Program-made: the position numbers and the translations under genes
Shown: in pieces, positions 10,583 to 48,390 of the stretch
Layout: each line of letters opens with the position of its first letter
Numbering within the stretch: the stretch's first letter is position 1
The notes under the pieces: model-generated
Told to the model about the DNA's origin: nothing
The model's database searches: none
The model's input: the letters and a program-made list of their open reading frames with translations, nothing else
Assembly: GCF_900167975.1 (NCBI RefSeq)
Contig: NZ_FUZU01000004.1
Span: 1-64,000, forward strand
DNA length: 64,000 nt
From: Ohtaekwangia koreensis
GTDB lineage: Bacteria > Bacteroidota > Bacteroidia > Cytophagales > Cyclobacteriaceae
Direction: 5' to 3'

Positions 10583-13500
10583 TTATTTTTTTGTTGGTAT
10601 AAGAGTTCCGTTTGCAATCTCTCTGAGAAATCCCTGGGCAACAGCTTTCATTACTACAATTGCTAAATTCTCAGTCGAAAAATGCCCTTGCGCCAAACCA
10701 CGGCTGTTCAACAAGGTGAATATATCTCTTCCTACTTGATTATTATATAGATCCATTTCCCTTCCTAGTGGATTTTCATTACGATGTAATTCATGAGCAT
10801 CTCCTAACCTCTTTGCCAAATCCAAGCCTAAGTCACGAGAATTTAAAGCGCTAAAAAGTGCATGCCTAAATGCGTCTCCATTTCCCTGGAAAAGAGTACT
10901 CTCTGAGAATAATTCTTGAGCAAGTCCCTTAGCATAATTTCCATTTACAAGATAAGCGGTTTGTTGTCCTCTCGTCATGTTATCAAAAATCGACAATTCC
11001 TGTGCCGACATTCTTGATCTATAACCATCACCATCCTGCCCACCTTGCGGGGCAAAGTACAGCCTTTCGTAATATTTATAATAACGCTGTATGCCGGCTT
11101 CCTCATCCCACCATGTATCCTTACTAACATCTACCAACCTCTCACCATAGTAGTAGCCATTTTCATCTTTTGGATAGTTGGTTAAGGGCACTGAACCAAG
11201 CGAAATACCTCCAGCCCCTCCGAACCCGGCGAGCGCATATTGGTATTGAGCCTGTTGAAGATCTGTTCCGGACCATTGTCGCTGCCCAGAGGAGCTTCGT
11301 GGATTCATTAGCCTTCCATTCACGAAAATCATACCGCTTTCTACACCACCAGGCTCATCGATTATCGGTCGCGTATAAACTTCGTGATCGGGATCGTTGG
11401 GATCTGCACCAGCAGGATCATTCCAATAAACTGGATCATTGAAAGCGTAATTGAAAGGGGAAATATCTGAATATTTTTCTGCTAACGGATCAATCTGTAA
11501 CATCCGCCCTAATGCGGGATCATAATTTCGAAATAGCATTTCATAGACTCCGGAGGTAACGTTTAGTTCAGATCCGGCATTGTACAAATAGTTATTCTTA
11601 TTCGACTCGCGTGTCCAACTGTTGACTGTCTGGAGTCCAAATGGGTAGTACTCATTATACTGTAAAATATTACCAGGGGTATAGGTAAACGTTACATCAT
11701 CAAAGTATCCTTCCACGTAAGTGCTACTTTCATTGGACAGATAGACAAAAGCATACCCGGCCTCTTTCACAGTGTATTCCCGCGACATATAATCGTGTGC
11801 TGCTTTAGGCGTTACTCCTGTCTGTGCTCCACCGTCAATCTGCTCAAATGCTATATCCAGAAGCTTGAAATTTTTGTCAAAAATCAGAATGTTTACAAAT
11901 AGCTTAGGAAATGAATTTGATCCGACTCCACCACCGCCTGCGACAACACTACCATAAGCATTTAAACCTTGATATTTCAAAGCAGCTTCTCCTGTTGAAG
12001 CGGCAGTGACACCAAATGCCGATGTTAATGCTGCTGCAAATGCCGATAAATTACTATTGGTACTTTGAACATTATAGTACTTAGCGTACGCTTCAATCTT
12101 TACCTTATCACCGGGATACACGGTATAGCTCTTTGAAACTCCTATTTGAGAATTATTACCACCATTCAAAAGTTGAGAATATGTAGGTGTAGTACCAACA
12201 CCTGTATGATTAAACAGGTCCCAACCACTTCGACTCCCTCCAGACGGATAGTTGTCCACCGAACTGTTTGAAGCGGCTTCAAAGTCAGCTGTTGCTGTTT
12301 GAGATGTAGCGGATGACGATGTAAACAAAACGCGCGTATTTCCTTGATGGTCGGCAATGGCATATTGATACTCTAAGGTAGTCCCATTCTTAACAACTCT
12401 TCCTTCTGGTGAACCGAAAAAGCTTAAATTATTATTATCGTAAACAAAGCTTCCAACATAATCAGTGCTCGACAGTAACGTCGTATTTTGAAATACTTTC
12501 GTATTTAACTTCGTACCAGAGGCATCATAGATATAAGTTATTTTTTTTCCATCGCTAAAACTGACTTCCGAAGCTTTACCTATATCATTATATATAGTTC
12601 CGGTAATACCTTTATTTGCATCTGACAGAATACTACCCGAGGTGTTATAGGTATATTCATTGGACGTATTTACAAGATTATTAAATCCGGCCTGTCCGGT
12701 AGTTCCGGTAACAGCATCCTCCACTTTATTTAGATAGTTACTAACACCACTTGTGGCATAGGTATAGGTAAGATTGTCAATGGCCTGCGGTGAAGAGGTA
12801 ACGGTCAACCCTGACATCCCACGAAGGTTTCTGTTTCGCTGCAGCGTTTTGATATTTCCATTATAATCATAGGTCAAAGTCTCATTCAATGTATTCAACT
12901 CTTTATTCCAAGAAGTACCATAAGCCTGGAACGTTGCCGAAGTCAAACGGTTAGCTTTATCATATCTGAACTTATAGCTCCTTTGATCAGACTGCCCGGA
13001 GGTATAACCAACACTCTTCCACTTGATAGCCCCTATATTGCCGTTCCAATAAACCGTGTCACCAGTTTGATTATTTAACCCCGTTTCAACGGTATTGTAT
13101 AAGAGTTCCAATCCAAAGTAATCGTCACCCTCATCATTTGACGAATTTGCTATCAATTGAGCATTGTTAATAGAACTAAGTGCTCCCTTAATAGTATATC
13201 TATAGTCAACACTTTGCAAAAAGTTTGAGCCGGTAGTGTTATGCAATTTTTTATCAACCAGTTCTCCTATTTCATTATACTCGTATTGAACGAGTAATTG
13301 ATCAGCAGAACCGTTGTTGCTCTGGTATACTCGAAGTAGTCTTCCAGTATGATCATAGTTATATTTGTTTAACACTGTCGTTTGGTTCGTACCGCCGGCA
13401 TTATGAAAAACCTTAGTGGTTTTAACGGAACCATCAAAGTTATACTCATAGCTCGACAGATTATCAGCGGTCAATGAAAGATGATTATTGCTTCTTACTT

Positions 13501-14878
13501 GTATAACTCGATTTTTAAAGTCGTAGAAAATATAATTGACAAGCCAAGAACTTGTCCCTACGATCAATGACTTGGCGCCCGTTATTTTTCCTCGCGCCTC
13601 AGCTTGCTGCCCTTCTTCTGCAAAACCTTGCGCTATATATGAATAATCATTTGTCCCATTGCTATCAAAATCGTAGTCATCATAATATTTAACAACAAGG
13701 GCTTCGGTATTTGCCGTGGGAAAACATTGGTTACTATATCCATGACTCGAGCCGGACTGCTTTTTTTCAAAATAAGGATCCGTTGTATTACTATATAGCA
13801 CATCCAATACATTGGTTTGAATGGCTGCCCGGGTGGTATACGTTGTATTCGTGTAAAGACCTTCAAGGACAGACCTGCCCTTATTATCGTACTTTATGAA
13901 ATACCACTTATTTGATGCTCTTACGTTGCCGTCTTGGATTAAAATCAATCGATCTAAAGGATCATAAGCATAATATATAGGAGCTGTACCAGGTACTTTC
14001 TTTTCTACTAACCTCCCTCTTTGATCATACACGTAACTATAGGAGTAGTTATCCAACAGAGCAGCGGAAATCGAGGTTAACGTCCCCAACTGTCTCACTC
14101 CTTCGGGTTGTAGTATATAGCGAAGACGGCCGACCTCATCATAGATAAACAAGGTTTTAAGCCATGTTGAAACCTTAGATTGAATTCTTTTTTCTACTAT
14201 CTTGCCAAGCTTATCTACAAAACTCAACCCTTTATTTCCATTCTCATCCGTTACCTCAAAAACCTGCAGCGAAGCCGCAGCATAGTATCCAGTGCTGGTT
14301 GCATCAGCCTTCCATATTCTTACTTCGTTTGCTGTATTGACACGTTGAACTTCTTTTGAAGTATGTCCGCTGCCTGGCTGCCAGCCATTTCCAACTGAAC
14401 CTTCCTCCTTGACAAGACCAATCGGAGACGCCTCAAGAACGCGAACGCCAAAAGGGTATATATCATCTGCTACTTTATCAGCTGCGTTATTATAAAAAGA
14501 TTTCTGTGCATTTATAGCTTGCCAGCGATGCATCCAGCGACCGTCAGAAAAAGAGTTTACAAAGGGAAGATAAGTAGTATCTATTCTCCCGTAATGATCA
14601 TAAGCAGGCAGGTTGTATAGGTCCTTTTGAGTCGGACTCCCTTGAATAGATACGTTGGCGATTGTTCTTCCCAGGCCATCCTGGTATCGTACCCCTGTCA
14701 ATTTGCTGGACTGAGGCAGGCTAATTAGGCCAGTCTCATTTTTTATCCCTTTAACTCGAACTATCTCAATTTGATTAGCTTTAAATTGTGCTGTCACAAC
14801 ATCCGCCTGCTGGCTATGACATACACTTGGAATGCTGGTAATCATCAGCAGAAAAAAGATATACTGTAGTGCTTTCAT
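10583..14878 (-). CDS. Secreted Rhs/YD-repeat protein with C-terminal effector tip (locus 1)
   Basis: A 1431-residue protein. The signal peptide is residues 1-23. The N-terminal DUF6443-like region contains LTGVRYQDGLGRTIANVSIQ. The middle is a long set of YD-type repeats (FIYDEVGRLRYI, YVYDQRGRLVEK, YAYDPLDRLILIQD, FRYDKANRLTSA). The Rhs core boundary is at about 1130-1165 (RNYDPALGRMLQIDPLAEKY, then NPVYW-like NDPVYWNDPAG). After it comes a variable tip of about 265 residues. The tip's last 100 residues carry GDAFRHALFSALNSRDLGLD, DAHELHRNENPLGREMDLYN and NNQVGRDI, a pattern I recall from DUF6973-type toxin tips; its activity is unknown. It lies 15 bp after the partner gene. Confidence 0.85.
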   Translation of the reverse strand: MKALQYIFFLLMITSIPSVCHSQQADVVTAQFKANQIEIVRVKGIKNETGLISLPQSSKLTGVRYQDGLGRTIANVSIQGSPTQKDLYNLPAYDHYGRIDTTYLPFVNSFSDGRWMHRWQAINAQKSFYNNAADKVADDIYPFGVRVLEASPIGLVKEEGSVGNGWQPGSGHTSKEVQRVNTANEVRIWKADATSTGYYAAASLQVFEVTDENGNKGLSFVDKLGKIVEKRIQSKVSTWLKTLFIYDEVGRLRYILQPEGVRQLGTLTSISAALLDNYSYSYVYDQRGRLVEKKVPGTAPIYYAYDPLDRLILIQDGNVRASNKWYFIKYDNKGRSVLEGLYTNTTYTTRAAIQTNVLDVLYSNTTDPYFEKKQSGSSHGYSNQCFPTANTEALVVKYYDDYDFDSNGTNDYSYIAQGFAEEGQQAEARGKITGAKSLIVGTSSWLVNYIFYDFKNRVIQVRSNNHLSLTADNLSSYEYNFDGSVKTTKVFHNAGGTNQTTVLNKYNYDHTGRLLRVYQSNNGSADQLLVQYEYNEIGELVDKKLHNTTGSNFLQSVDYRYTIKGALSSINNAQLIANSSNDEGDDYFGLELLYNTVETGLNNQTGDTVYWNGNIGAIKWKSVGYTSGQSDQRSYKFRYDKANRLTSATFQAYGTSWNKELNTLNETLTYDYNGNIKTLQRNRNLRGMSGLTVTSSPQAIDNLTYTYATSGVSNYLNKVEDAVTGTTGQAGFNNLVNTSNEYTYNTSGSILSDANKGITGTIYNDIGKASEVSFSDGKKITYIYDASGTKLNTKVFQNTTLLSSTDYVGSFVYDNNNLSFFGSPEGRVVKNGTTLEYQYAIADHQGNTRVLFTSSSATSQTATADFEAASNSSVDNYPSGGSRSGWDLFNHTGVGTTPTYSQLLNGGNNSQIGVSKSYTVYPGDKVKIEAYAKYYNVQSTNSNLSAFAAALTSAFGVTAASTGEAALKYQGLNAYGSVVAGGGGVGSNSFPKLFVNILIFDKNFKLLDIAFEQIDGGAQTGVTPKAAHDYMSREYTVKEAGYAFVYLSNESSTYVEGYFDDVTFTYTPGNILQYNEYYPFGLQTVNSWTRESNKNNYLYNAGSELNVTSGVYEMLFRNYDPALGRMLQIDPLAEKYSDISPFNYAFNDPVYWNDPAGADPNDPDHEVYTRPIIDEPGGVESGMIFVNGRLMNPRSSSGQRQWSGTDLQQAQYQYALAGFGGAGGISLGSVPLTNYPKDENGYYYGERLVDVSKDTWWDEEAGIQRYYKYYERLYFAPQGGQDGDGYRSRMSAQELSIFDNMTRGQQTAYLVNGNYAKGLAQELFSESTLFQGNGDAFRHALFSALNSRDLGLDLAKRLGDAHELHRNENPLGREMDLYNNQVGRDIFTLLNSRGLAQGHFSTENLAIVVMKAVAQGFLREIANGTLIPTKK

Positions 14879-19261: not shown

Positions 19262-19263
19262 AT

Positions 19264-19308
19264 GCCCATCCCACATCTCCTGCTTAAGGGGAAGGTGGGC
19301 TTTTTTTT
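19264..19308 (+). terminator. Intrinsic terminator/attenuator just before hsdR
   Basis: GCCCAtCC (19264-19271) pairs with GGtGGGC (19294-19300), and inside it TCTCC pairs with GGGGA around a TGCTTAA loop (about 19276-19292). Eight T residues follow at once (19301-19308). The hsdR start codon is at 19313, so any transcript for the operon that begins upstream must read through this element. That suggests attenuation, or an otherwise unusual promoter position. Confidence 0.65.
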
Positions 19309-19312: not shown

Positions 19313-22132
19313 ATGAACCAAAACCCTGAGCAAATCGCGCGTGACCAAATCGATCAGATGTTGATCGACTGTGGGTGGGTTGTTCAGCGAAAAACTAAGA
19401 TCAATTTATCGGCCGGTTTAGGGGTAGCTGTAACGGAATATCAAACAGAAACGGGTCCGGTTGATTACCTTTTGTTCATCGACAAGAAACCTGTCGGTGT
19501 GATCGAAGCTAAAAAGGCAGAGGAGGGTGTTAGACTACTTCAGGTTGAAGATCAAACCAAACGATACGCAGACGGCAAGTTGAAGTATCTTAACAACGAT
19601 CCTCTATTTTTCGGATACGAAAGCACAGGAGAAGTAACACGATTTACTGATTACCGCGATCCGAAGCCGCGATCGAGAACCTTATTCGACTTTCATAGAC
19701 CGGAGACATTAGCAAAATGGCTTAGTGAAGAAAAAACACTGCGGGCCAGATTCTTTGATTTACCCGAACTTAATACGGACGACTTACGCGAGTGTCAGGT
19801 CAATGCCATTACTAAACTTGAGACCTCCTTTAAGGAAAATAGACCGAAAGCCCTTATCCAAATGGCAACGGGCTCGGGCAAGACTTTTACGGCCATCACG
19901 TTCATTTATCGCTTGCTAAAATTTGCCAAAGCGAAGCGCGTTCTTTTTCTGGTAGATACAAAAAATTTGGGAGAGCAAGCAGAACAGGAATTCATGGCTT
20001 ATGTACCCAATGACGATAATCGGAAGTTCACAGAGCTTTACGGAGTTCAACGTCTGCGAAGGGGAACATTCTCGCCCGACAACCAGGTATATATATCAAC
20101 CATTCAAAGGTTTTACTCCATCCTTAAAGATGAGGAGCTTGATGAAAGTGCGGAAGAAACAAATCCGAATGAATCACGCGCGTGGGAAAAACGCGAGCCT
20201 GTACCTGTAGTTTACAATCCAAAGATTCCCGTTGAGTTCTTTGATTTTGTTATAGTCGATGAATGCCATCGTAGTATATATAACTTATGGAAGCAAGTGC
20301 TGGACTACTTTGATAGTTTTCTCATCGGTCTAACCGCTACACCCGACAATCGTACCTTCGGATTCTTTAATCAAAATGTAGTGAGTGAGTACACGCATGA
20401 ACAAGCTGTAACGGATGGAGTAAACGTGGGCTTCGATGTGTACCTGATCGAAACCGAAGTATCTAAAAAAGGTGGTGTCGTATGGAAAGGCGAATACGTA
20501 GATCATCGCGAGAAAGACACACGTAGAAAACGATGGGAGCAACTGGATGAAGATAAAGTTTATTCAAACAAGCAATTGGATAATGAGGTAGTAAATCCCA
20601 ATCAAATACGATTGATCATTAAAACTTTTAAAGAACATCTGCCTCATATTTTTCAGGATCGTGTTGATGAGCACGGTGTATTTGAAATACCGAAGACACT
20701 CATTTTCGCCAAAACTGATTCACATGCAGATGACATTATTCAAATTGTGCGTGAGGAGTTTGCTGAGGAGAATAAGTTTTGTAAAAAAATCACTTACGGA
20801 ACTACAAAGGATAAAAAAGATGACAAGGGCAATGTGGTTGAAAAAGGTGAAGACCCTAAAAGTACACTAGCTCAATTTCGAAACGATTATTATCCCCGTA
20901 TTGCTGTAACGGTGGATATGATTGCCACGGGCACTGATGTGAAGCCTCTGGAGTGTTTGCTCTTTATGCGTGACGTAAAAAGCAGAAACTACTTTGAGCA
21001 GATGAAAGGCCGCGGCACGCGTACTATCGATCTTGATACTCTCCGTAAAGTGACCCCCACAGCCAAATTTACTAAAGACCATTTTGTGATTATCGATGCC
21101 ATTGGTGTTACGAAAAGCTTAAAGACTGATAGTAGGCCGTTGGAGAAGAAACCCGGTGTACCACTTAAGGACTTATTAGGAGCTATTACTGTAGGGGCAC
21201 GCGATGAAGAATTGTTTACTTCATTAGCCGGAAGACTTGCTCGGCTCGAAAAGCAAATCACAGAAAAGGAGAAGACCACGTTCCAGGAAAAAGCCGAAGG
21301 TAAAACTATTACGGAAGTAGTGAAGGGACTGCTTAATGCATTTAATCCCGATACTTTGGCTGATATACGCGCACAGGTGGAGCAACAATTTGCCGGTGAA
21401 GCGCCAAAGCTGAAAGACGAGAAATACGAACAGCGCGTAACGGCATTGCAAGACAAGGCAGCTGATGTGTTTAATGGCGATCTCAATGAATATATTGAGA
21501 ATGTAAGAAGAGCTCATGCGCAGGTAATTGATCACATCAATCCGGATAAACTGGTAAACGTGGGTTGGGATAAAGACAATACGGAGAAAGCTCAAACGCT
21601 CATTAAAGATTTCACACAGTGGATTGAAACGCATAAAGATGAAATTACGGCTCTGCAAGTCTTTTACAGTCAACCTTACCGCAGACGACAGCTTACGTAT
21701 ACGATGATCAAGGATGTGTACGAGTTGTTGAAAGCAGAAAAACCGATGCTGGCACCCATGCATGTTTGGAGAGCCTATGAACAATTGGGACAAAGTAATG
21801 GATCGCCTAAGAATGAATTGATCGCACTAGTGTCTTTGATCAGAGCCGTAAGTGGAATTGACCAGAGCCTTACCGCTTTTGATAGAACTGTAGACAAGAA
21901 CTTCCAGGAGTGGGTGTTTAAGAAACAAGCCGGTGCGCTCAAGTTTACTGAAGAGCAAATGCAATGGCTACGCATGATCAAAGATTACGTGGCTGCAAGC
22001 TTTCACATTACAACTGAAGATTTCGATCTAAGTCCTTTTAACGCAGCCGGTGGATTGGGTAAGTACTACCAGCTGTTCAGAGAGGACTATGAAAAAATAT
22101 TGGATGAACTCAATGAATCGTTAGCAGCCTAA
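19313..22132 (+). CDS. hsdR: Type I restriction enzyme, R subunit
   Basis: The translocating and cutting subunit, 939 residues from ATG 19313; an earlier ATG at 19262 lies in the terminator hairpin and is rejected. Residues 1-110 hold the PD-(D/E)XK nuclease, with VDYLLFIDKKPVGVIEAKKA giving the D...E-x-K set. The SF2 motor has Walker A MATGSGKT (about 183-190), Walker B VDECHRS (about 314) and TATPDN. Motif VI-like QMKGRGTRT follows at about 562-570. The C-terminal third resembles the EcoEI R-subunit C domain. It lies one base upstream of the helicase-nuclease gene. Length and motif set appear intact. Confidence 0.95.
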   Translation: MNQNPEQIARDQIDQMLIDCGWVVQRKTKINLSAGLGVAVTEYQTETGPVDYLLFIDKKPVGVIEAKKAEEGVRLLQVEDQTKRYADGKLKYLNNDPLFFGYESTGEVTRFTDYRDPKPRSRTLFDFHRPETLAKWLSEEKTLRARFFDLPELNTDDLRECQVNAITKLETSFKENRPKALIQMATGSGKTFTAITFIYRLLKFAKAKRVLFLVDTKNLGEQAEQEFMAYVPNDDNRKFTELYGVQRLRRGTFSPDNQVYISTIQRFYSILKDEELDESAEETNPNESRAWEKREPVPVVYNPKIPVEFFDFVIVDECHRSIYNLWKQVLDYFDSFLIGLTATPDNRTFGFFNQNVVSEYTHEQAVTDGVNVGFDVYLIETEVSKKGGVVWKGEYVDHREKDTRRKRWEQLDEDKVYSNKQLDNEVVNPNQIRLIIKTFKEHLPHIFQDRVDEHGVFEIPKTLIFAKTDSHADDIIQIVREEFAEENKFCKKITYGTTKDKKDDKGNVVEKGEDPKSTLAQFRNDYYPRIAVTVDMIATGTDVKPLECLLFMRDVKSRNYFEQMKGRGTRTIDLDTLRKVTPTAKFTKDHFVIIDAIGVTKSLKTDSRPLEKKPGVPLKDLLGAITVGARDEELFTSLAGRLARLEKQITEKEKTTFQEKAEGKTITEVVKGLLNAFNPDTLADIRAQVEQQFAGEAPKLKDEKYEQRVTALQDKAADVFNGDLNEYIENVRRAHAQVIDHINPDKLVNVGWDKDNTEKAQTLIKDFTQWIETHKDEITALQVFYSQPYRRRQLTYTMIKDVYELLKAEKPMLAPMHVWRAYEQLGQSNGSPKNELIALVSLIRAVSGIDQSLTAFDRTVDKNFQEWVFKKQAGALKFTEEQMQWLRMIKDYVAASFHITTEDFDLSPFNAAGGLGKYYQLFREDYEKILDELNESLAA

Positions 22133-22133
22133 T

Positions 22134-25100
22134 ATGAATTTAGAAGAAAAGATTATCGAAGTTCTTACCGAGGGCAAGCCGTTAAAGGCGAAGGAAATTG
22201 TCTTGTTACTTGCGTCAAAATATGAAGTTCAAGTGGATACGACTGCGGTTAATTCAATACTTCATAGAAAGCTGCGCGATAAGGCTGAACAAAATAAAAA
22301 CTATCAATGGTCGCTGAGGAAGAAGTCAAATGGTTCGACTGAGAGGCTAACTTCCAGCGCAAATAGCGAAACTCCTCTCTCCAAATTATCTTACTACTAC
22401 CTCGAGTGCATTTCGAAAGATATGGATGCTGGTATTTCAGTCTTTGCATCAAGTCAATTTAGTCTCGAATACTCGCAAATAAATTCCTTCCCATCAGAAC
22501 AAGGTCCAACGCAGCGAATACAAAATCATTTGCTCAATAAGGTGAAGCAAGACAAAAACAGCTTTGTATTTAAGTTGGGTTATCCCATGCTGATTAGAAG
22601 TTTCACTGCAAAGAATGGTAATTCTTATCTGATGGCCGAGCCACTCTTTATTTTTTCAGTGGATACAGAATATGCGTTGAAAGACGGGGTTGTCAGGTTG
22701 ACGGATGATGACCCGGTACTAAACCCGAAAGCGCTGGAATCAATAACAGGAGTCAATTCAAGCGCAGAGCTGCTAAGTGAAATTGTTGAGCTCTATGAAG
22801 AGTTAGGTATCAATAACGATCCGGAAGATAAACCAAGCTTGGACGAAATGTTTCAGCGCCTTGAACAATTACAAAGCGATTGGAAATGGAATGACGCATT
22901 GGATATCGCAAAACTGAAGCAAGAAACGATAGCTTCGTTAACTAAGCCGGGTATATATAATGCTGCAGCTATATTTATTGGTGAAAAGTCAAAGTATACT
23001 GTAGGTCTCGAAAAGGACCTTAAGGACTTATCTAAAATTCCAGAAAGCAGTTATAATAATTCAGCTCTTGGAAGTTGGATTAATGATTCTGTTGGCGACT
23101 CTTCTATAAGCGATAAAGTGTTAATCGAACCCATTTCGCTCAATGAGGAACAGCGTGAAGCCATTCTGAAAGGATTGGCATCTCCACTTACTGTTGTGAC
23201 GGGACCTCCGGGCACAGGGAAATCTCAAGTAGTCGCCAGTCTAATTGTAAATGCTGTTTACCAGGGACAAACCGTTTTGTTCTCTAGTAAGAACAACAAA
23301 GCCGTAGATGTTGTCAACGATCGCGTAAATGCCTTAACCAACAGGCAGGTAATGTTACGTCTTGGTTCCAAGTTTCAAGTTACATTGTCGGAATACCTTT
23401 CAGGATTACTTTCAGCACGTCCCTCAGGAGATGATGAATCGAGATACAAGGAGGCCAAGGAAATACACGACAGACTCCTTCAGCAAATTGAATCGATTAA
23501 GCAACAGCAAGAGCATGTTGTCAAACTGCGGAATGATGTTGATAGAATTGAAAGCAGTGTTGAGATCTACCGAGAAGAACTCGGTTCAGATTTCTTTGCC
23601 TCTTGCGAGTCATTGAAGTTAGACGAGCTAAACAATCTTGATCCGCTCATTCAAGGATCAAGAGTAAAATTAGATCAGGCAGATAAAACGAAACAGTCAT
23701 TCTTTGTAAAACTTTTCTGGAAGTCCTTTAGCAAATCAAGGTTTACAAGACTGAAGGAGTATATGGATAGTATTGCTTTGCACGCTTCTTCATTAGGTGT
23801 TTCAAAGCCACTGGCACCCATTGATGACTTCACCATTCATGTCTACGAAAAATTCCTGTCTGATCTTTCTATTCGAAATAGTAAGGCAAAAGAGATAAAG
23901 AAATACTTTGTTAGTCTTGCTCAGCTCAATAGTGCACAAGATCTGTTTGCGCTGTCATTAAAAGAAAAGGAGGCAACTGATCAGGTCGTGTCAAACTCAC
24001 TTGATCTTTGGAACTACTGGCTGCAACTTTTACCTAGCCGGATGACGCAAAACGATCGCAAAGTAATCGGTGACTATGTGGCTATATTAAACCTGATCAT
24101 TGCTGCGCAGGAAAAGAATCAGCAGCCGGATCGAGGAATTTGGTCGAAGTATTATACTCTCCAACCTCAGCTGATGCATGTACTTTCTGCCTGGGCCGTT
24201 ACATCGTTATCGGCAAGAGGCCGTGTGCCGCTGGAGCCGGGCTTCTTCGACCTGGTTATTATCGATGAAGCCAGTCAGTGTGATATCGCATCTGCGCTGC
24301 CTTTATTATACCGGGCAAAACGTGCCGTAATTATTGGTGACGACAAACAACTTACTCACATCAGCGCCATCAGTGAAACGCAGGATATTCACCTATTGGA
24401 GAAATACGGGCTTGATGGACAATACATGGGTTGGAGTTATGCGTCTACATCATTGTTCCGCCTGGCAGCATCCCGTTGCAAGTCTGAAAATATTATCGTG
24501 CTTCGCGATCATCACCGTTCGCATGCCGACATTATCAATTATTCAAACAAATCCTTTTACGAGAATACCCTTCGCGTTGCCACCAAGTATGAAAACTTAA
24601 AGTCCATTCCCAACGAACCCGTAGTGCGATGGCTCGATGTGAAAGGTAAATGCGTACGACCGGAGACAGGTAGTTCCTACAATGATCAGGAGGCTGAACA
24701 AGTGGTGAAAGAGTTAAGCAGGTTGGTAAGCAATGGATACAAGGGATCTATCGGTGTAGTTACACCTTTCCGTGCTCAGCACTTACGTATACAAGACAAG
24801 ATCAACCAAAACAAAGACTTGGCCGATAGGCTGATGCTGAGAGATTTTCTTTGCGACACCGTGCATAAGTTTCAGGGTGATGAAAGAGATGTTATACTCT
24901 TCTCATCTGTGGTAAGCATAGGAGTTACAGAAGGTGCAGTAAGTTTCTTGAAAAGGACAGGCAATCTTTTTAACGTAGCCATTACCCGTGCCCGCGCGGC
25001 TTTGATTGTGGTTGGCGATAGCCAAGTGTGTTACCATTCTGGTATTTCGCATTACAAGGGCTTCGTTGAATACGTGAATCAACTGGAAAACAGAGAGCCA

Positions 25101-25469
25101 CTCACCAATAAAAATCTTGTAACTGACAATGGCCCAAGATATCCGAAAGTAAATACAAGGGTGATGATTTCTGATTGGGAGAAGTACCTTTACGAAGCAT
25201 TGTACAGGGCGGGCATACCTACTATACCACAGTATCAGGTGGGACAGTACTCGCTTGACCTTGCTATTATCGATGGCGACCGAAAACTGAACATTGAAGT
25301 AGATGGTGAAAAATATCATCGTAACTGGGATGGCGAGCTGATGAGACGCGACCAACTAAGAAACAAACGACTGATTGAGTTAGGTTGGAATGTGCAACGC
25401 TTTTGGGTTTACCAGGTGAGAGATAATATGAAACAGTGTATTGAAAAGATTAAGGAATGGAAAGGGTAA
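22134..25469 (+). CDS. Superfamily 1 (DNA2/NAM7-type) helicase with C-terminal Vsr-like nuclease
   Basis: A 1111-residue protein. The N-terminus (1-65) is a winged-helix-like domain (KIIEVLTEGKPLKAKEIVLL). The helicase has Walker A TGPPGTGKS (about 355-363), a long coiled-coil insert (about 430-480), Walker B VIIDEASQCDIA (about 703-714), DDKQL, then QGDERDVILFS (about 913) and VAITRARAALIVVGD (about 948-962). Residues about 1010-1111 form a Vsr/DUF559-like PD-(D/E)XK nuclease, with YSLDLAI, NIEVDGEKYH and LIELGWNVQRFWVYQV. It starts one base after hsdR and overlaps hsdS by 13 bases, so it is translated with the type I system. Known type I systems do not need such a subunit. Confidence 0.85.
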   Translation: MNLEEKIIEVLTEGKPLKAKEIVLLLASKYEVQVDTTAVNSILHRKLRDKAEQNKNYQWSLRKKSNGSTERLTSSANSETPLSKLSYYYLECISKDMDAGISVFASSQFSLEYSQINSFPSEQGPTQRIQNHLLNKVKQDKNSFVFKLGYPMLIRSFTAKNGNSYLMAEPLFIFSVDTEYALKDGVVRLTDDDPVLNPKALESITGVNSSAELLSEIVELYEELGINNDPEDKPSLDEMFQRLEQLQSDWKWNDALDIAKLKQETIASLTKPGIYNAAAIFIGEKSKYTVGLEKDLKDLSKIPESSYNNSALGSWINDSVGDSSISDKVLIEPISLNEEQREAILKGLASPLTVVTGPPGTGKSQVVASLIVNAVYQGQTVLFSSKNNKAVDVVNDRVNALTNRQVMLRLGSKFQVTLSEYLSGLLSARPSGDDESRYKEAKEIHDRLLQQIESIKQQQEHVVKLRNDVDRIESSVEIYREELGSDFFASCESLKLDELNNLDPLIQGSRVKLDQADKTKQSFFVKLFWKSFSKSRFTRLKEYMDSIALHASSLGVSKPLAPIDDFTIHVYEKFLSDLSIRNSKAKEIKKYFVSLAQLNSAQDLFALSLKEKEATDQVVSNSLDLWNYWLQLLPSRMTQNDRKVIGDYVAILNLIIAAQEKNQQPDRGIWSKYYTLQPQLMHVLSAWAVTSLSARGRVPLEPGFFDLVIIDEASQCDIASALPLLYRAKRAVIIGDDKQLTHISAISETQDIHLLEKYGLDGQYMGWSYASTSLFRLAASRCKSENIIVLRDHHRSHADIINYSNKSFYENTLRVATKYENLKSIPNEPVVRWLDVKGKCVRPETGSSYNDQEAEQVVKELSRLVSNGYKGSIGVVTPFRAQHLRIQDKINQNKDLADRLMLRDFLCDTVHKFQGDERDVILFSSVVSIGVTEGAVSFLKRTGNLFNVAITRARAALIVVGDSQVCYHSGISHYKGFVEYVNQLENREPLTNKNLVTDNGPRYPKVNTRVMISDWEKYLYEALYRAGIPTIPQYQVGQYSLDLAIIDGDRKLNIEVDGEKYHRNWDGELMRRDQLRNKRLIELGWNVQRFWVYQVRDNMKQCIEKIKEWKG

Positions 25470-27367
25470 TAGAAAAAATCAATGCAAGTGAATCAACGTT
25501 ACCTCAAGGATGGAAATGGGTTAAGTTAGGAGAGGTATGCGACATTATTAATGGAAAGAATCAATCTGAAGTACTTGATCCAAACGGTAAGTATCCGATT
25601 TATGGAAGCAGTGGAATTTTTGGCTATGCAAATAAATACTTATGCAATGAAGGTACCACGGTTATTGGAAGAAAGGGGACTATTAACAGTCCGATTTATG
25701 TTTCGACAAAATTTTGGAATGTGGACACAGCCTTTGGTTTGAGTCCAAAAGGCACACTTATTGGAAAGTTTCTCTTTTACTTCTGTAAAGGATTTAATTT
25801 TCATGCATTGGATAAAAGCACAACCATACCAAGTCTAGCGAAACGAGATTTGCTATCAATTGATATGGTACTACCGCCTATCACCCAACAACGCGCTATC
25901 GTTTCCAAAATAGAGGAACTCCTCAGCGATCTCGACAAAGGCAAACAACAATTAGAACTCGCACAGCAGCAATTAAAAGTTTACCGCCAGGCTGTGTTCA
26001 ACCTCGCAATAAAAGGAGAAGCAAATATTCCAATTGAAGACGTTATAGATTCATTGGATCAAGGTTGGAGTCCGAGATGTCATAATGAACCCTCTCCCAA
26101 TGAAAATATTTGGGGGGTAATCAAAACCACAGCTGTTCAAGCAGGCTATTTCCTTGACGGTGAAAATAAAATGCTGCCAGGTAATCTTGAACCCCGAATG
26201 CAACATGAACTAAAAGTAGGAGATATTCTTATCACACGAGCAGGTCCAAGGGTAAGAGTAGGTGTGTGCTGTATGGTGAGGCAAACCCGCTCTAAGTTAC
26301 TAAACTGTGATAAGGTTTATAGGATCAAAGTAAATCCAAAAGTTGTCATCCCTGAGTATCTCGAAATATTGCTTAATACTCCTAAGTATTCAAAGGAAAT
26401 AGGGAAAATGAAAACGGGAATTAGCGACAGCGGTGTAAATCTAACTCAGAAAGGTTTTTTAAAAATATTGTTACCGGTTCCGATGATAAAAGAACAAAAG
26501 TCAATAGTTCTAGAAATCGAAAGCCGTCTGAGTGTATGTGATAAAGTAGAAGAAACTATAAACCAAAGCCTATCTCAGGCCGAAACCCTCCGGCAAAGCA
26601 TTTTGAAGAAGGCGTTTGAGGGTAAGCTACTTACTGAAGTAGAAAGTGAAGACATTCGAGTACTTTCGAAATCAGTAGAAAAACTCACCATTGTAACTGA
26701 ACCACTGATAAAAAACAACGTAGAGACTGATACACATTTTCTGAAAGTCATTGCCGGAATCAAAGATACTGACCTGCATGCAGGCATTCTTGCCATGGTG
26801 ATCGATGCTCATGAAAAATCACCTGAACATCATCTTAAACTCAGTCATGTAAAGGGTGAAAAGATCGCGCATCTTGTGGAGGCCTATATTGGAATTGATC
26901 TTGGCCGAAATCCCAGAAAAGACGCAGCCGGGCCAGATGATTATCCGCACCTTAAAAAGGTAGAAAGTCGTGCTGCAAAGGCAGGCTGGTTTCGTACGGA
27001 GAGGCTTCATATCGGTCAAACGTATGTTTCAAAATCTGGTATGCCGAAGATCATCAAACGCGTTAAAGAAATGCTACCTACTGAAGACCTGAATAAAATT
27101 GAAAAACTAATTCAGACCTTTCTTCCATTCGAACTCGAACATGCGGAAGTCATTGCAACCGTATATGCCGGATGGAACAATCTTCTGCTCGATGGCAGAA
27201 CTCCAACAGATGAAGAGATCGTTTACGAATCAAGAGAGAATTGGTCAAAAAGAAAATTGACTATTGAGCGAGAGAAATTCTTTAATGCATTACACTGGCT
27301 ACGTAAGCATGAGATGGTGCCTGTTGGAGTAGGGAAAACTGTTTCTAAACCTAAGACATCAATCTAA
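25457..27367 (+). CDS. hsdS: Type I restriction specificity subunit with extra C-terminal domain
   Basis: Recognises the DNA target for methylation and cutting. Two target-recognition domains are seen: TRD1 about 15-145 (LPQGWKWVKLGEVCDIINGK) and TRD2 about 200-345. Each is followed by a coiled-coil spacer (IVSKIEELLSDLDKGKQQLE; IVLEIESRLSVCDKVEETIN), the second ending ILKKAFEGKLL at about 390. Most S subunits stop here. This one continues with about 240 residues, including IAHLVEAYIGIDLGRNPRKD, YPHLKKVESRAAKAGWFRTE, EVIATVYAGWNNLLLDGRTP and FFNALHWLRKHEMVP. The function of that extension is unknown. It starts inside the helicase gene, and the ATPase gene begins 5 bp after its stop. Confidence 0.93.
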   Translation: MERVIEKINASESTLPQGWKWVKLGEVCDIINGKNQSEVLDPNGKYPIYGSSGIFGYANKYLCNEGTTVIGRKGTINSPIYVSTKFWNVDTAFGLSPKGTLIGKFLFYFCKGFNFHALDKSTTIPSLAKRDLLSIDMVLPPITQQRAIVSKIEELLSDLDKGKQQLELAQQQLKVYRQAVFNLAIKGEANIPIEDVIDSLDQGWSPRCHNEPSPNENIWGVIKTTAVQAGYFLDGENKMLPGNLEPRMQHELKVGDILITRAGPRVRVGVCCMVRQTRSKLLNCDKVYRIKVNPKVVIPEYLEILLNTPKYSKEIGKMKTGISDSGVNLTQKGFLKILLPVPMIKEQKSIVLEIESRLSVCDKVEETINQSLSQAETLRQSILKKAFEGKLLTEVESEDIRVLSKSVEKLTIVTEPLIKNNVETDTHFLKVIAGIKDTDLHAGILAMVIDAHEKSPEHHLKLSHVKGEKIAHLVEAYIGIDLGRNPRKDAAGPDDYPHLKKVESRAAKAGWFRTERLHIGQTYVSKSGMPKIIKRVKEMLPTEDLNKIEKLIQTFLPFELEHAEVIATVYAGWNNLLLDGRTPTDEEIVYESRENWSKRKLTIEREKFFNALHWLRKHEMVPVGVGKTVSKPKTSI

Positions 27368-27372
27368 GAACC

Positions 27373-28908
27373 ATGTTCAGATTAAAAGACATTTTTTTTA
27401 AGAAGAACAAAGTATTCAAGACGTTCGGTGTTGGGTTCCAGGATCTATTTGATCAAAATAAGGCTGAGCCGAATCGACCATACTTCTCATTAATCATTGG
27501 GCCAAACGGTACTGGTAAAAGTTATCTTTTAAAATTTATTGTCGAAATATTTAGAATTGCTTACGCAAAAAAAAATGTTTTAAACTATTCAGGAGAGATA
27601 ACCGGGAGGTACAAACTAGAGTACGAGATGAATGGTGCTCTTTATACTATATCCAATTTCATTGAAGTTGGTGGCACGGATCTAGAAGCAGTGGGCGGAA
27701 GCAATCCAGTGCATTTTTCTAAAGAGGTAAAGACGGAAGAAGGAATCGAAACAATACCAAACGAAATCGAATTTCCGGAAAGGATCATTGCTAATTCGTT
27801 GATGATAACTGATAAATTTCCTGTGCTTAAAGATGATATATTTCCCATTTACACATACCTGGGAATACGCAGAACATCGTCAGTTGCCGGAACAAGAACC
27901 TATGTGAGAAAAACTATCGAACTGTTGACTGAATCTATTGATGAGGAGACTTTCAGATCAAGTTTGATTGATCTTTTAGATTTCCTCGGATTGCAGCATT
28001 CACTTTATGTGAGTTACATCCCAAAATATAGGTCAAAGTTTTTTGCAGGAAATTTATCAGGAGAGTTTATTAATGAGTTTTTTGCAAATTTTACTCAATA
28101 TACAAGGCGAGACGAAAATCGAAAACCTTGGGGCTATGATTACTTCCAGAAAATTAAGACAGATAGGGCGTTGCTAGATCGAATCGCTGCATTTTGCAAT
28201 GAAAAGAGTTTAGAGCTAAAACCAATACATGAGAAGTCCAGAACACTCTATTTTGGATACGATGTGCTTTCACAACATACTTTGAAAGAAGACTATGAGA
28301 TGATCAAGCACTTAACCAAACTTGATTTAGTTTCCTTTCCATCCATAACTCTCAGGAGGCAGGGCAATGAATATGAGCTTGAAGAAAGTAGTTCCGGTGA
28401 ATATCATTTTTTCTCAACGATTGTGGGGCTTTTAGCATCAATAAAAGAAAACTCTTTGATTCTCATTGATGAACCAGAAGTGAGTTTGCATCCTAACTGG
28501 CAAATGAAGTATATGGAGTTTTTGAATCTGATCTTTGCCAAATTCTATTCCAGTCATTTTGTTATTACTACTCATTCGCATTTTTTGGTTTCGGGACTCA
28601 AATCTGAAAATTCTACAATCGTAGCGATGAGCCGTGAAAAGGATGAAATAATTCCAAGACAAATGCCGCAGGATACATTCGGATGGTCAGCAGAGGAAAT
28701 ATTGTACAATATTTTTAAAGTTAAAACTGTCAGAAACCATTTCATCGAAGCTGACTTAACAGATTTGCTTGGCTTAATCTCTGAGAATTCAAAAGACAAA
28801 AATCGTATTCAAGAAATACTCAATTCAATTCAATCGTTGAGTATCACATCAAATGATCCATTAAACGTTGTCATTGAAGAAGCAAATTCATATTTGAAAA
28901 CGATATGA
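27373..28908 (+). CDS. OLD/PtuA-like ABC-type ATPase
   Basis: A 511-residue ATPase of the AAA_15/AAA_21 (SMC/ABC-like) kind. Walker A is GPNGTGKS (43-50); the ABC signature-like ESSSGEYHFFST (about 337-348) is followed by Walker B LILIDEPEVSLHPNW (about 358-372) and the switch TTHSHFL (about 396-402). No TOPRIM nuclease domain follows. The next gene, an HNH nuclease, overlaps it by 4 bases (ATGA), the arrangement of PtuA-PtuB in Septu defence and of ATPase-HNH effectors in some retrons. It sits between hsdS and hsdM. I infer that it senses infection or loss of restriction and controls the HNH protein. Confidence 0.85.
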   Translation: MFRLKDIFFKKNKVFKTFGVGFQDLFDQNKAEPNRPYFSLIIGPNGTGKSYLLKFIVEIFRIAYAKKNVLNYSGEITGRYKLEYEMNGALYTISNFIEVGGTDLEAVGGSNPVHFSKEVKTEEGIETIPNEIEFPERIIANSLMITDKFPVLKDDIFPIYTYLGIRRTSSVAGTRTYVRKTIELLTESIDEETFRSSLIDLLDFLGLQHSLYVSYIPKYRSKFFAGNLSGEFINEFFANFTQYTRRDENRKPWGYDYFQKIKTDRALLDRIAAFCNEKSLELKPIHEKSRTLYFGYDVLSQHTLKEDYEMIKHLTKLDLVSFPSITLRRQGNEYELEESSSGEYHFFSTIVGLLASIKENSLILIDEPEVSLHPNWQMKYMEFLNLIFAKFYSSHFVITTHSHFLVSGLKSENSTIVAMSREKDEIIPRQMPQDTFGWSAEEILYNIFKVKTVRNHFIEADLTDLLGLISENSKDKNRIQEILNSIQSLSITSNDPLNVVIEEANSYLKTI

Positions 28909-29525
28909 TTTCTCAGATACCCGCTACTTTTCAACTCACTCAAGCACAGGAATTGCTACTACAGGCAATCTTCCCGTTTCAACCAGGAGCTTGGGACAGG
29001 AATGATGTTGAACCTATAAAACAAGAAATCCATGCTCAACTTTTGGCCATTCAAAATGGTAACTGCTGCTATTGTGGATTGAAAGTAAATGAAGGTGGTA
29101 GAGCGGAAATTGATCATATTGCAAAAAAAGGAGGGCCTAGACGCCCTGCATATACTGAATTCATATTTACTCCAAAAAATTTAGTCATTGCTTGTCAATA
29201 TTGCAATAGCTCATCTAAGAAGGGGCAAGATGATGTGTTGGATCAGGTTGACTTGACGAATTATGATAATTGTACTTTCAAAATTGTTCATCCTTATAAT
29301 GACGATCCAACGCACCACTATAGTTGGTCAACCGGAAGATTTAAAATCCTGATTTCTGCTGTAAGCAATAAAGGAAGATATTCTATTTCTTTATTCGAAC
29401 TGGATTCGGAAGCACACACCTTTGCCCGTGCGAAGCAGGTTATGTTCGAAACCCGATTAGCAAGGTACAATAATAGGCAAGCGATAAAGCAACGCGTTCT
29501 GGATATATTAAAATTCAATTTTTAA
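28905..29525 (+). CDS. HNH nuclease (PtuB-like)
   Basis: A 206-residue protein. The HNH/zinc-ribbon core spans 52-105: CCYCG (Cys54/55 and Cys57), the catalytic IDH (Asp70-His71), Asn92 in PKNLVIACQYC, and Cys97/Cys100. This is a full ββα-metal site, so the enzyme should be active. Its start codon overlaps the ATPase stop and its stop lies 2 bp before hsdM. The ATPase-HNH pair matches the Septu (PtuAB) composition; target (phage DNA, host DNA or tRNA) cannot be told from sequence. Confidence 0.87.
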   Translation: MISQIPATFQLTQAQELLLQAIFPFQPGAWDRNDVEPIKQEIHAQLLAIQNGNCCYCGLKVNEGGRAEIDHIAKKGGPRRPAYTEFIFTPKNLVIACQYCNSSSKKGQDDVLDQVDLTNYDNCTFKIVHPYNDDPTHHYSWSTGRFKILISAVSNKGRYSISLFELDSEAHTFARAKQVMFETRLARYNNRQAIKQRVLDILKFNF

Positions 29526-29527
29526 TA

Positions 29528-31015
29528 ATGAGTAACAACAATTCAGCAATAGTTAGTAAAGTTTGGAGTTTCTGTAATACCCTCCGCGATGATGGTGTAG
29601 GCTACGGAGATTATCTAGAGCAGCTAACGTATTTGCTCTTTCTAAAAATGGCTGACGAATACACCAAGCCACCACACAATCGTGCTTTCTCTATTCCAAA
29701 GAAATACACATGGGGCAAGCTTGTTCCATTAAAAGGCGCTGAGTTAGAAACGCACTATTCGGAAACACTTCGAGAGCTTGGAAAAGAAAAAGGAATACTG
29801 GGACAGATATTTACCAAAAGTCAAAATAAAATCCAGGACCCCGCCAAGCTTAGCAAAATCGTAGCGATGATTGATAGTGAGCAATGGCTAATGATGGGTG
29901 TGAAAGACAAAGGCGATATCTACGAAGGTCTGCTAGAGAAAAACGCAGAAGATACAAAGAGTGGGGCTGGTCAATACTTCACCCCTCGTGCGTTGATCAA
30001 GGCTATGGTCGCTTGTATACGTCCCGAACCTATGAAGACCATTGCAGACCCTGCGTGCGGTACCGGTGGATTCTTTTTAGCAGCATACGATTTCATTGTT
30101 GAGCAGAACAAACTGGATAAAGCACAAAGTAAATTTTTAAAATACTCGACCTTCTTTGGTAATGAGATCGTAGCCAGTACCAGGCGGCTCGCGCTGATGA
30201 ACTTATTCCTTCACGGCATCGGAGATATAGACTCTAATAGTTCTATTTCTGCAGAAGACGCATTACTCTCAGCACCAAAAACTACGTACGATTATGTCTT
30301 GGCCAATCCGCCCTTTGGTAAAAAGAGTAGCATGACCATCACCAATGAAGAAGGTGAAGAAGAAAAAGAGGACTTGGTTTACAACCGTCAGGATTTTGTG
30401 GTAACAACCAGCAACAAACAGCTCAATTTCCTGCAACACATTATCAGCATGCTTAAAACCGATGGTAAAGCTGCGGTCGTTTTGCCAGACAACGTTTTGT
30501 TTGAAGGTGGCGTTGGTGAAAAGGTTAGAAAATCACTACTTGAAAAAACAGAATTGCATACCATTCTTCGTCTGCCCACTGGAATATTTTATGCACATGG
30601 CGTAAAGGCCAACGTTTTGTTTTTCGATGGCAACCCCAATACTAAGAATGTAGGCACAAAAGATCTCTGGGTTTACGATTACCGAACCAACATTCATCAC
30701 ACGCTCAAAAAGAACGCACTGAAATTTGAAGACTTAGCTGACTTCATCAAATGCTATAACCCGACTAATCGAAAGAAGCGAAAAGAAACATGGAGTGAGA
30801 AAAACATTGACGGTCGTTGGCGAAAATTCAGCTACGATGAAATCATCGCTCGGGATAAAACTTCTTTAGACATCACCTGGCTAAAAGACAATTCCCTTGC
30901 CGATCTTGATAACCTTCCCGACCCGGATGTTTTGGCAAACGAGATAATTGAAAATTTGGAAGCCGGGTTGGAAAGTTTTAAAACTATTGTCGCAGCCCTA
31001 AACAGAAAGGTATAA
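29528..31015 (+). CDS. hsdM: Type I DNA methyltransferase, M subunit
   Basis: A 495-residue N6-adenine methyltransferase. The N-terminal HsdM_N helical region (about 5-130, VWSFCNTLRDDGVGYGDYLE) is followed by QYFTPRALIKAMV. The AdoMet motif I is DPACGTGGFFLAAY (about 174-187) and the catalytic motif IV is NPPFG (about 260-264). A second AdoMet-domain block (TDGKAAVVLPDNVLFEGGVG) and ILRLPTGIFYAHGVKANVLF follow. All key residues are present. The usual order is M-S-R or R-M-S; here M is last in the operon, after the ATPase-HNH pair. Confidence 0.96.
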   Translation: MSNNNSAIVSKVWSFCNTLRDDGVGYGDYLEQLTYLLFLKMADEYTKPPHNRAFSIPKKYTWGKLVPLKGAELETHYSETLRELGKEKGILGQIFTKSQNKIQDPAKLSKIVAMIDSEQWLMMGVKDKGDIYEGLLEKNAEDTKSGAGQYFTPRALIKAMVACIRPEPMKTIADPACGTGGFFLAAYDFIVEQNKLDKAQSKFLKYSTFFGNEIVASTRRLALMNLFLHGIGDIDSNSSISAEDALLSAPKTTYDYVLANPPFGKKSSMTITNEEGEEEKEDLVYNRQDFVVTTSNKQLNFLQHIISMLKTDGKAAVVLPDNVLFEGGVGEKVRKSLLEKTELHTILRLPTGIFYAHGVKANVLFFDGNPNTKNVGTKDLWVYDYRTNIHHTLKKNALKFEDLADFIKCYNPTNRKKRKETWSEKNIDGRWRKFSYDEIIARDKTSLDITWLKDNSLADLDNLPDPDVLANEIIENLEAGLESFKTIVAALNRKV

Positions 31016-31043: not shown

Positions 31044-31163
31044 GCAGCGTCTAAGTAGCTGTATATTTAAATGTAATGGTTTTAATACCATAATTGACCT
31101 AGATCGATAGCTTTTCAACTATAGATCACCTGTCAATCCCTCACACAGTTACTTAGACGCTGC
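31044..31163. mobile_element. 120-bp MITE-like element
   Basis: The ends are inverted repeats: GCAGCGTCTAAGTAGCTGTAT at 31044-31064 and its near-perfect complement at 31143-31163 (19 of 21 bases agree). The inside is AT-rich and has no open frame. A third copy of the repeat occurs alone at 2252-2272. This is the design of a non-autonomous transposable element mobilised by a transposase encoded elsewhere. The parent IS family could not be named with confidence. It lies between hsdM and the convergent XRE gene. Confidence 0.65.
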
Positions 31164-31260: not shown

Positions 31261-31809
31261 TTAAACTTTTCGATACTGGAATTTTGACTTCTTGTCTGTT
31301 GTCAGTTTCTCAACAAGTCCTTTCCTCCTTAGTTCTTCAAGCGCATCAGAAATTCTCGTGGTCGTAAATTTTACATCGTACTTATCATGTAAATGGCCAG
31401 CAATTTCTTTCGTGAGTCTAGGAGTATCCATAAATTTTGAGTTCAGAATCTTTTCTCTGATAGCGTACATCAGACTCTTCTTAAGAAAAACATGAGGATT
31501 GATGTCGTGGAGTAATAGGTACTTATGAACATTTTTCCTCAGTAAATCAGGATCTGGAATCGGTTCATCATACTGAAACAGTTGGAAATCCTCTACGCCA
31601 AAGAAATCTGAGAGTGTAGATACAGTATCTATTCCAATACTTATTTTTCCAGATTCAATCTTTGAGATATGTGTCTGTATAATTCCTGTCGCGTAATGAA
31701 TCTGCTCCTGTGAAAGATTTACAGATTCTCGAATTGCTTTAAGCCGGTCAGCGAACTTTTTACGACTGTTCTTATCATTATTTTTTTGCACCCAACAAGG
31801 TGCTTTCAA
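31261..31809 (-). CDS. XRE-family transcriptional regulator
   Basis: A 182-residue regulator. Residues about 19-75 form a Cro/C1-type HTH (FADRLKAIRESVNLSQEQIH, IIQTHISKIESGKISIGIDT, LSDFFGVEDFQLF). Residues about 100-180 form a second, winged-helix-like unit (LTKEIAGHLHDKYDVKFTTT, RISDALEELRRKGLVEKLTT). It is convergent with the restriction operon and may control it, as small XRE proteins often do, but no operator was matched. The start may be internal; the first 15 residues (MKAPCWVQKNNDKNS) look unlike the family. Confidence 0.85.
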   Translation of the reverse strand: MKAPCWVQKNNDKNSRKKFADRLKAIRESVNLSQEQIHYATGIIQTHISKIESGKISIGIDTVSTLSDFFGVEDFQLFQYDEPIPDPDLLRKNVHKYLLLHDINPHVFLKKSLMYAIREKILNSKFMDTPRLTKEIAGHLHDKYDVKFTTTRISDALEELRRKGLVEKLTTDKKSKFQYRKV

Positions 31810-47126: not shown

Positions 47127-48380
47127 ATGGTAGCCAAGGTGATCAGCGGAAAAGATATACAGGGGGCACTCAATTACAACGAACAGAAAGTTATGGAAGG
47201 TAAAGCGCTATGTATTCAGGCGAATCTTTTTAAGAAGGAAGCAGGCAACTTGAATTTCTATGAGAAGCTCGCGCGCTTCACTGATCTCAATGAAAAGAAT
47301 ATACGCACCAAGACCAACACTCTTCATATCTCCCTGAATTTTGACGTGACCGAAAAGCTTGGTGTACACATGCTGAATCAAATTGCCTCGCAGTATATGG
47401 ACAAGATCGGCTTCGGGGATCAACCCTACCTGGTATATCAACACACTGATACAGCGCACCCGCATGTGCATATTGTCACTACGCTCATTCAGCAAAACGG
47501 TAAACGAATTCCCATTCACTACCTGGGGAAGAATCAATCTGAAAAAGCGAGGAACGAAATAGAGACAGCGTTTGGATTGGTGCAGGCTCAAAGCAAGGGT
47601 AAAGAACAGAAAGAGATGATCCGTCCTGTAGATGTGGAAAAAGTGGTCTACGGAAAGTCTGAGACAAGACGAAGTATTGTAAACATCGTGTGCATGGCAA
47701 CACGCTCCTACAAGTATACCTCGCTACCGGAATTGAACGCGGTACTCAGGCAGTACAATGTTACGGCTGAGCGCGGGACCGAAAAGTCAAAGATGTTTGC
47801 CCGAAAGGGACTGATGTATAGTCTCATTGATCAGAAAGGAAAACGTATAGGTATACCCGTAAAAGCCAGTGCTATATATAGCAAGCCGACGCTGGCATTT
47901 CTGGAAAAGCAATTCAAGCTCAATGAAGTACTACGGTTGCCGTTGAAAGAACCGATGAAAAAGGCAGTGGACAAAGTCTTACTATCAAAGGCTGTCACTA
48001 CCAAAGAACAGTTCAAATGTGAATTGGAGAAAAGCGGCATTGCTGTACTCCTCCGAACCAATACAGAAGGTAGAACCTATGGGATAACCTTTGTCGATAA
48101 TCAAAGAAGAGTGGTCTTCAATGGAAGTGACCTTGGTAAGCCTTATAGTGCCACCGCTATTTTAGAAAAACTATCGGCCAAAGAAGATACAGTAAAACCT
48201 TACCGTCCGGGATTCACGGACAAAGTCGCCTCACAGGAAAAGTATACTCACGAAGCGGTCGCCAGTACCAATTCAATGATACAGGATTTGGTAACAGCCG
48301 GGGACCTTGACAGAAGTTCACCAGAGGCAGCTCTGAAACTTGGACGAAAAAGGAGAAGAAGAAAAGGACGTACACTTTAA
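47127..48380 (+). CDS. MOBP-type relaxase (MobA/VirD2 family)
   Basis: A 417-residue relaxase that nicks oriT and leads the DNA strand to a recipient. The candidate catalytic Tyr is Tyr17 in GALNYNEQKV. The histidine triad is HPHVH (His111, His113, His115) in YQHTDTAHPHVHIVTTLIQQ, with LHISLNFD (about 66-73) before it. Its C-terminal third is basic and ends in KLGRKRRRRKGRTL. The end overlaps an in-frame upstream extension of the coupling-protein gene. Confidence 0.93.
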   Translation: MVAKVISGKDIQGALNYNEQKVMEGKALCIQANLFKKEAGNLNFYEKLARFTDLNEKNIRTKTNTLHISLNFDVTEKLGVHMLNQIASQYMDKIGFGDQPYLVYQHTDTAHPHVHIVTTLIQQNGKRIPIHYLGKNQSEKARNEIETAFGLVQAQSKGKEQKEMIRPVDVEKVVYGKSETRRSIVNIVCMATRSYKYTSLPELNAVLRQYNVTAERGTEKSKMFARKGLMYSLIDQKGKRIGIPVKASAIYSKPTLAFLEKQFKLNEVLRLPLKEPMKKAVDKVLLSKAVTTKEQFKCELEKSGIAVLLRTNTEGRTYGITFVDNQRRVVFNGSDLGKPYSATAILEKLSAKEDTVKPYRPGFTDKVASQEKYTHEAVASTNSMIQDLVTAGDLDRSSPEAALKLGRKRRRRKGRTL

Positions 48381-48390
48381 ACTCATTGCT

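Follow-up and report, generated by a model that had tools for sequence, protein, structure and literature searches.

Our comparative analysis concerns the first 64,000 nucleotides of contig NZ_FUZU01000004.1 of Ohtaekwangia koreensis (hereafter the window), in which a six-gene operon on the forward strand combines the type I restriction-modification (R-M) genes hsdR, hsdS and hsdM with a helicase-nuclease gene and with the ptuA-ptuB pair of a Septu system (Table 1). With a probability of roughly three in four, this locus is a Bacteroidota type I R-M operon gained by horizontal transfer and built as hsdR-[A]-hsdS-[B]-hsdM, which accepts one interchangeable defence module per slot, now holds the helicase-nuclease in slot A and Septu in slot B, and would act as a layered defence.

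All six genes are uninterrupted open reading frames (ORFs), and their identities, drawn from Pfam, PADLOC and NCBIfam, agree with the order hsdR, helicase-nuclease, hsdS, ptuA, HNH gene and hsdM proposed in a preliminary description of this DNA. Its account of the junctions as gaps of 1-5 bp and overlaps of 13 and 4 bp also holds (+1, -13, +5, -4 and +2 bp in gene order), and the three extra genes, with two different nuclease folds, do lie inside one compact operon, as it stated. HsdR, HsdM and HsdS have intact domains and motifs, and catalytic motifs are intact in all five operon proteins other than the specificity subunit HsdS, which has none to check. HsdR matches the Pfam families ResIII (E 1.4e-40), EcoEI_R_C (1.3e-37) and, over the cut-off, HSDR_N, carries the motifs ATGSGKT, VDECH and QMKGRGTR, and matches the HsdR structure 3h1t; the motifs DPACGTGGF and NPPF are present in HsdM. 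The mechanical ORF of hsdR begins at 19262, and the start at 19313 is preferred because HsdR of the relatives begins with '(M)TNQNPEQ..'. The Septu pair consists of an ABC/OLD-type ATPase, PtuA, adjoining an HNH nuclease, PtuB, with catalytic motifs present. PtuA contains a Walker A motif (GPNGTGKS), a Walker B motif (LILIDEPE) and TTHS, and matches in sequence the solved PtuA structure 8ee4. PtuB scores 48.4 bits against TIGR02646, slightly below the cut-off of 52.15, and its residues H71 and N92 are conserved across seven PtuBs. HsdS has an additional C-terminal domain (residues ~426-631) without a Pfam match, which among the backbone relatives compared is common only to HsdS of loci L139 and L200; single-sequence AlphaFold models of this domain and of PtuB were too poor for use (pLDDT, the predicted local distance difference test score, 46 and 35, respectively).

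To characterize the backbone, HsdM was searched against two samples of ~395 Bacteroidota genomes each, which were even draws from the phylum, and the counts given below apply to these sampled genomes. The search retrieved 44 loci, 31 of which carry the three hsd genes in order on a single strand, and in all 31 the order is hsdR-hsdS-hsdM. The last place of hsdM, which had been described as unusual, is thus the rule in this lineage, a statement confined to the lineage and not extended to all type I systems; in L159, which is more distant, hsdS comes last (R, M, S). Cargo was found between hsdR and hsdS (slot A) and/or between hsdS and hsdM (slot B) in 29 of the 31 ordered loci, slot A being filled in 23, slot B in 22, both in 16 and neither in two; L193 is a relative without cargo. 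Foreign defence-type genes therefore lie between the hsd genes and vary among related loci, in the manner of the rlo genes discussed below.

The cargo named by Pfam or PADLOC comprises KAP NTPase, DUF6615, RhuM, GmrSD fused to Schlafen, DUF4062 together with Schlafen AlbA_2, DUF5131, DUF3644, metallo-beta-lactamase, a NO VEIN domain and PtuAB, which are mutually unrelated families, and part of the cargo has no match in either database. DUF5131 always occupies slot A, and PtuAB and RhuM always occupy slot B. On the HsdM tree the contents changed at least 19 times in slot A and at least 22 times in slot B, counts that are raised by giving many unnamed cargo genes individual labels. The closest comparison is provided by L139, the sister of the window on this tree (branch support 98%), with 79.7% identity in HsdR and 78.8% in HsdM. 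Slot A of L139 is empty, with 1 bp separating hsdR from hsdS where the window has the helicase, and slot B holds a DUF4062 and Schlafen pair in place of ptuAB. The platform reading is favoured because a constant backbone receives cargo at the same two junctions with contents that change on the tree, and because even the sister locus differs in both slots.

Slot B holds a Septu pair in four of the relatives (L104, L157, L161 and L223). In L161 both ptuA and hsdM are broken, and for L157 and L161 hsdR is not in the stretch read. In a tree of 12 PtuA proteins, which has long branches, the slot-B PtuAs do not form one clade (approximately unbiased test, p 0.034) and belong to two or more PtuA lineages, and on the HsdM tree the state with PtuAB in slot B requires at least four changes. 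PtuA of the window and that of L104 are 35% identical, versus 79% for their HsdM. The association of Septu with R-M is real, as slot-B capture recurs in four other backbones. It also takes other forms: in L231 (1882-14100; same region in L105) a row hsdM-hsdS-mcrB-mcrC-hsdR-ptuA-ptuB joins type I, McrBC and Septu genes, and the closest PtuA (42%) is found in L228 near a probable type III R-M system. The latter region (L228, 2195-15660) reads as a single row in which PtuAB stands with type III mod and res, a gene for a TIR-like protein and others, the names being assigned from sequence only. Further PtuAB pairs are free-standing, outside R-M operons. Assignment of the pair as the effector of a retron type I-A was rejected, as the NCBIfam retron models give 62 of 500 bits for PtuA and 31.6 of 150 for PtuB, and no reverse transcriptase is among the six operon proteins.

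The slot A protein matches Pfam AAA_11/AAA_12 and, at its C-terminus, MTES_1575 (DUF559; E 2e-14), and resembles Upf1, Smubp-2 and Sen1 helicases among solved structures. Among 77 homologues, conservation is at least 97% for its Walker A and B motifs and for the nuclease residues D1042, E1055 and D1057. A scan of ~85,000 species genomes gave 202 loci, of which the best 80 were examined; these come from Bacteroidota, Bacillota, Proteobacteria, Chloroflexi, Planctomycetota and others. The helicase is unlinked to its neighbours in 41 of the 58 loci with sequence on both sides, neither ptuA nor ptuB lies near it in any of the best 80 of 202, and none of the 31 ordered relatives carries it in slot A. 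The expectation that the gene order would be conserved in unrelated genomes accordingly fails for the mostly stand-alone helicase; Septu in slot B does recur. Since the helicase and PtuAB are each found without the other and away from this backbone, exchangeable modules are favoured. The association of the helicase with type I R-M does recur, but in a minority of loci: in L021 it lies within a type I region of another family (hsdM-helicase-HipA-hsdM-hsdS-hsdR), and in L072 (9995-23036) directly before hsdM-hsdM-AAA_13 ATPase-hsdS-hsdR, again type I of another family. The AAA_13 protein of L072 has a candidate R-x3-E...H motif resembling that of PrrC/RloC. In L031 (9989-19490) the helicase is flanked by an Eco57I-type methylase on one side and by a DruH (Druantia type III) match on the other. 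Identification of the helicase as Mokosh was rejected, the MkoC match covering residues 335-972 only, as were ProA (193 of 1500 bits) and Hhe (128 of 2000 bits).

The backbone gene hsdR is missing from all six congeners, which argues for horizontal acquisition; among the 59 relatives searched it is present in two other members of the family and two other members of the order, a patchy pattern as expected of horizontal spread. The G+C content at third codon positions is 0.42-0.43 in hsdR, the helicase gene and hsdM versus 0.32-0.34 in hsdS, ptuA and ptuB, a split that hints at different gene histories but is not decisive. No convincing flanking direct repeats were found as a boundary of an element, the viral contigs searched contained no relative of the PtuA of the window, and the plasmids searched for the operon gave stand-alone PtuAB and partial helicase matches only. 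A mobilisation module lies 16-19 kb from the operon. Just 3' of hsdM is an imperfect palindrome, of which two more partial copies (84-85% identity) exist in the same genome, so that it is possibly a small dispersed repeat. Two genes for large RHS-repeat proteins also lie in the window.

Table 1. Genes of the operon and neighbouring features in the window.
Feature	Position	Strand	Description
hsdR	19313-22132	+	939 amino acids (aa); PD-(D/E)xK N-terminus, superfamily 2 (SF2) translocase, EcoEI_R_C C-terminus
Helicase-nuclease (slot A cargo)	22134-25469	+	1111 aa; superfamily 1 (SF1; Upf1/IGHMBP2-type) helicase with C-terminal MTES_1575/DUF559 (Vsr-like) nuclease
hsdS	25457-27367	+	Specificity subunit, 636 aa; Pfam Methylase_S; PADLOC Specificity_I 360 bits
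Additional C-terminal domain of HsdS	26732-27349		
ptuA (slot B cargo)	27373-28908	+	ABC/OLD-type ATPase of Septu; PADLOC PtuA 354.6 bits, full length
ptuB (slot B cargo)	28905-29525	+	HNH nuclease of Septu; PADLOC PtuB 112 bits
hsdM	29528-31015	+	Type I N6-adenine methyltransferase, 495 aa; Pfam N6_Mtase 239 bits, HsdM_N; PADLOC MTase_I 652 bits
GC-rich hairpin, then T run	19279-19299		~14 bp before hsdR start
Imperfect palindrome	31044-31163		19-nt arms, 95% complementary, 82 nt apart
HTH_3-type regulator gene	31261-31809	-	Convergent with hsdM
Mobilisation module	47127-50328		Relaxase (MobA/VirD2-type) and TraG/TraD-type coupling protein
RHS-repeat large protein	10583-14878	-	
RHS-repeat large protein	52703-58312	-	Also leucine-rich repeats and C-terminal Bacterial toxin 24 match, typical of polymorphic toxins

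The short gaps suggest that the six genes are co-transcribed, so that all layers would most likely be expressed from one transcript, and scans for internal promoters and terminators in the operon gave no excess over shuffled sequence. The hairpin upstream of hsdR could be a leader terminator, although the frequency of such matches does not exceed that in shuffled sequence, and the regulator gene downstream of hsdM, whose product weakly matches R-M control proteins (PADLOC 36 bits), could regulate the operon. HsdM and HsdS would methylate self DNA and HsdR would cut unmethylated invading DNA, and phages that block or evade restriction would then face two effectors of different mechanism. The helicase-nuclease is predicted to act on nucleic acid, and PtuAB to be an ATPase-gated HNH nuclease, whose target may be inferred from studied relatives cutting tRNA-Tyr or nicked DNA. 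In both retron-Eco7 and one E. coli Septu, tRNA-Tyr is what PtuAB depletes or cleaves (PMC11555353, PMC13096335), and another Septu is reported as DNA-cutting (PMC11555353). Whether such cargo works by itself may differ between systems. In Vibrio cholerae, tgvAB inside a type I operon protects alone, without HsdR activity (PMC11411939), and embedded cargo can therefore be autonomous; PrrC is held by a type I enzyme and released, and embedded cargo can therefore also be coupled. The sequence of the present operon may be compatible with both.

Several observations weigh against the platform reading. The short overlaps and the recurrent use of slot B by Septu could be signs of functional coupling; the occurrence of the helicase beside or inside type I operons in L021 and L072 may reflect a link that is more than chance; and the counts are drawn from sampled genomes and, for the helicase, from the top 80 among 202 loci.

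Among the alternatives, it is conceivable, though we consider it rather unlikely, that the operon is a hot spot of a mobile island at which defence genes settle, position giving them only shared expression. The high diversity of the cargo, the relaxase and TraG-type genes nearby and the absence of the operon from congeners fit such neutral accretion, but the insertions are limited to two junctions at which reading frames and tight coupling are kept, and cargo types show slot preference, with DUF5131 found only in A and PtuAB only in B. A guard function is an unlikely explanation: the type I complex would silence PtuAB, and a phage anti-restriction factor that inactivates the complex would release it, as with PrrC in EcoprrI, so that cutting of tRNA (or DNA) halts the infection. 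PrrC, an ABC-ATPase tRNase in a type I operon, is indeed sequestered by that operon's enzyme complex until T4 infection sets it free (PMC3874165), and the tRNA-Tyr activity of PtuAB in the two studied systems, the repeated capture of Septu in slot B and the position of PtuAB after another type I operon (L105/L231) and beside the probable type III system of L228 point in the same direction. PtuAB pairs, however, also exist without R-M, slot B is more often filled by cargo that is not of tRNase type (RhuM, GmrSD, metallo-beta-lactamase), and some PtuAB cut DNA instead. Slightly more doubtful is a coupled circuit of exchangeable parts, in which HsdRMS as a sensor would silence PtuAB until a phage inactivates restriction, whereupon PtuAB would fire by tRNA or DNA cutting, and the helicase-nuclease would act on ends made by HsdR. 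The single integrated six-component machine of interdependent proteins put forward in the preliminary description agrees with the compact, overlapping operon and its intact motifs but is very improbable, given that its six-gene order occurs in none of the 31 ordered relatives and none of the best 80 of 202 helicase loci, that the closest backbone has other cargo, and that the modules are found apart.

The platform reading suggests that Bacteroidota type I operons offer two defined cargo sites. The two slots are thus a place to look for new defence genes, with DUF5131, DUF3644, DUF6615, the DUF4062-Schlafen pairs and RhuM as candidates, and for slot cargo the distinction between autonomous action and gating by the restriction enzyme becomes testable. 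The repeated capture of Septu in one slot resembles the PrrC case, which makes the guard idea testable with a second, unrelated module of tRNase type.

Insertions of unrelated genes into type I hsd operons have been described in Campylobacter jejuni, where, according to Miller 2005 as cited in PMC2610378, type I loci carry rlo ('restriction linked orf') genes; in strain M1 rloA/rloB lie within the R-M region (PMC2928727), and both RloF of C. jejuni and tgvAB of V. cholerae are placed between hsdR and hsdS (PMC11411939). Unlike in the window, the cargo of the C. jejuni loci is RloA/B/C/F, the open-access literature searched reporting neither an SF1 helicase-nuclease nor Septu there. EcoprrI (prrABD and prrC) resembles the window in that its type I operon contains an ABC-ATPase nuclease module, but PrrC is a single protein with its own anticodon-nuclease domain, held by a type IC enzyme, whereas the PtuA ATPase and the PtuB HNH nuclease are separate. 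Identity with EcoprrI/PrrC was rejected, as there is no single-chain anticodon nuclease of AAA_13 type in the operon and PtuA matches AAA_21/AAA_15. A second defence system is likewise embedded in the type I R-M locus of the V. cholerae island VPI-2 (tgvAB) and in that of enteropathogenic E. coli (DarTG2, RRDM island). Both are active against phages; their cargo is GmrSD-like and of toxin-antitoxin type, and one slot is used versus two here. The window shares its ptuA-ptuB pair of overlapping genes with Septu type I (PtuAB). Septu has been found nested in Hma systems (PMC12255303, PMC8565338), but the host operon in the window is type I R-M with an N6-adenine methyltransferase and without Hma proteins; Hma (HmaA helicase, HmaB 5-methylcytosine methyltransferase, HmaC ATPase) was rejected, as no Hma model is among the PADLOC hits listed and the methyltransferase is of the HsdM N6 type. 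In the open-access literature we found no paper on Septu repeatedly placed between hsdS and hsdM or on this helicase between hsdR and hsdS. That type I loci can hold cargo (rlo genes, prrC, tgvAB, DarTG) is already known, from prrC and the Campylobacter rlo genes onwards, and the new elements are the combination of the helicase with Septu, the two-slot pattern and the repeated capture of Septu in a single slot.

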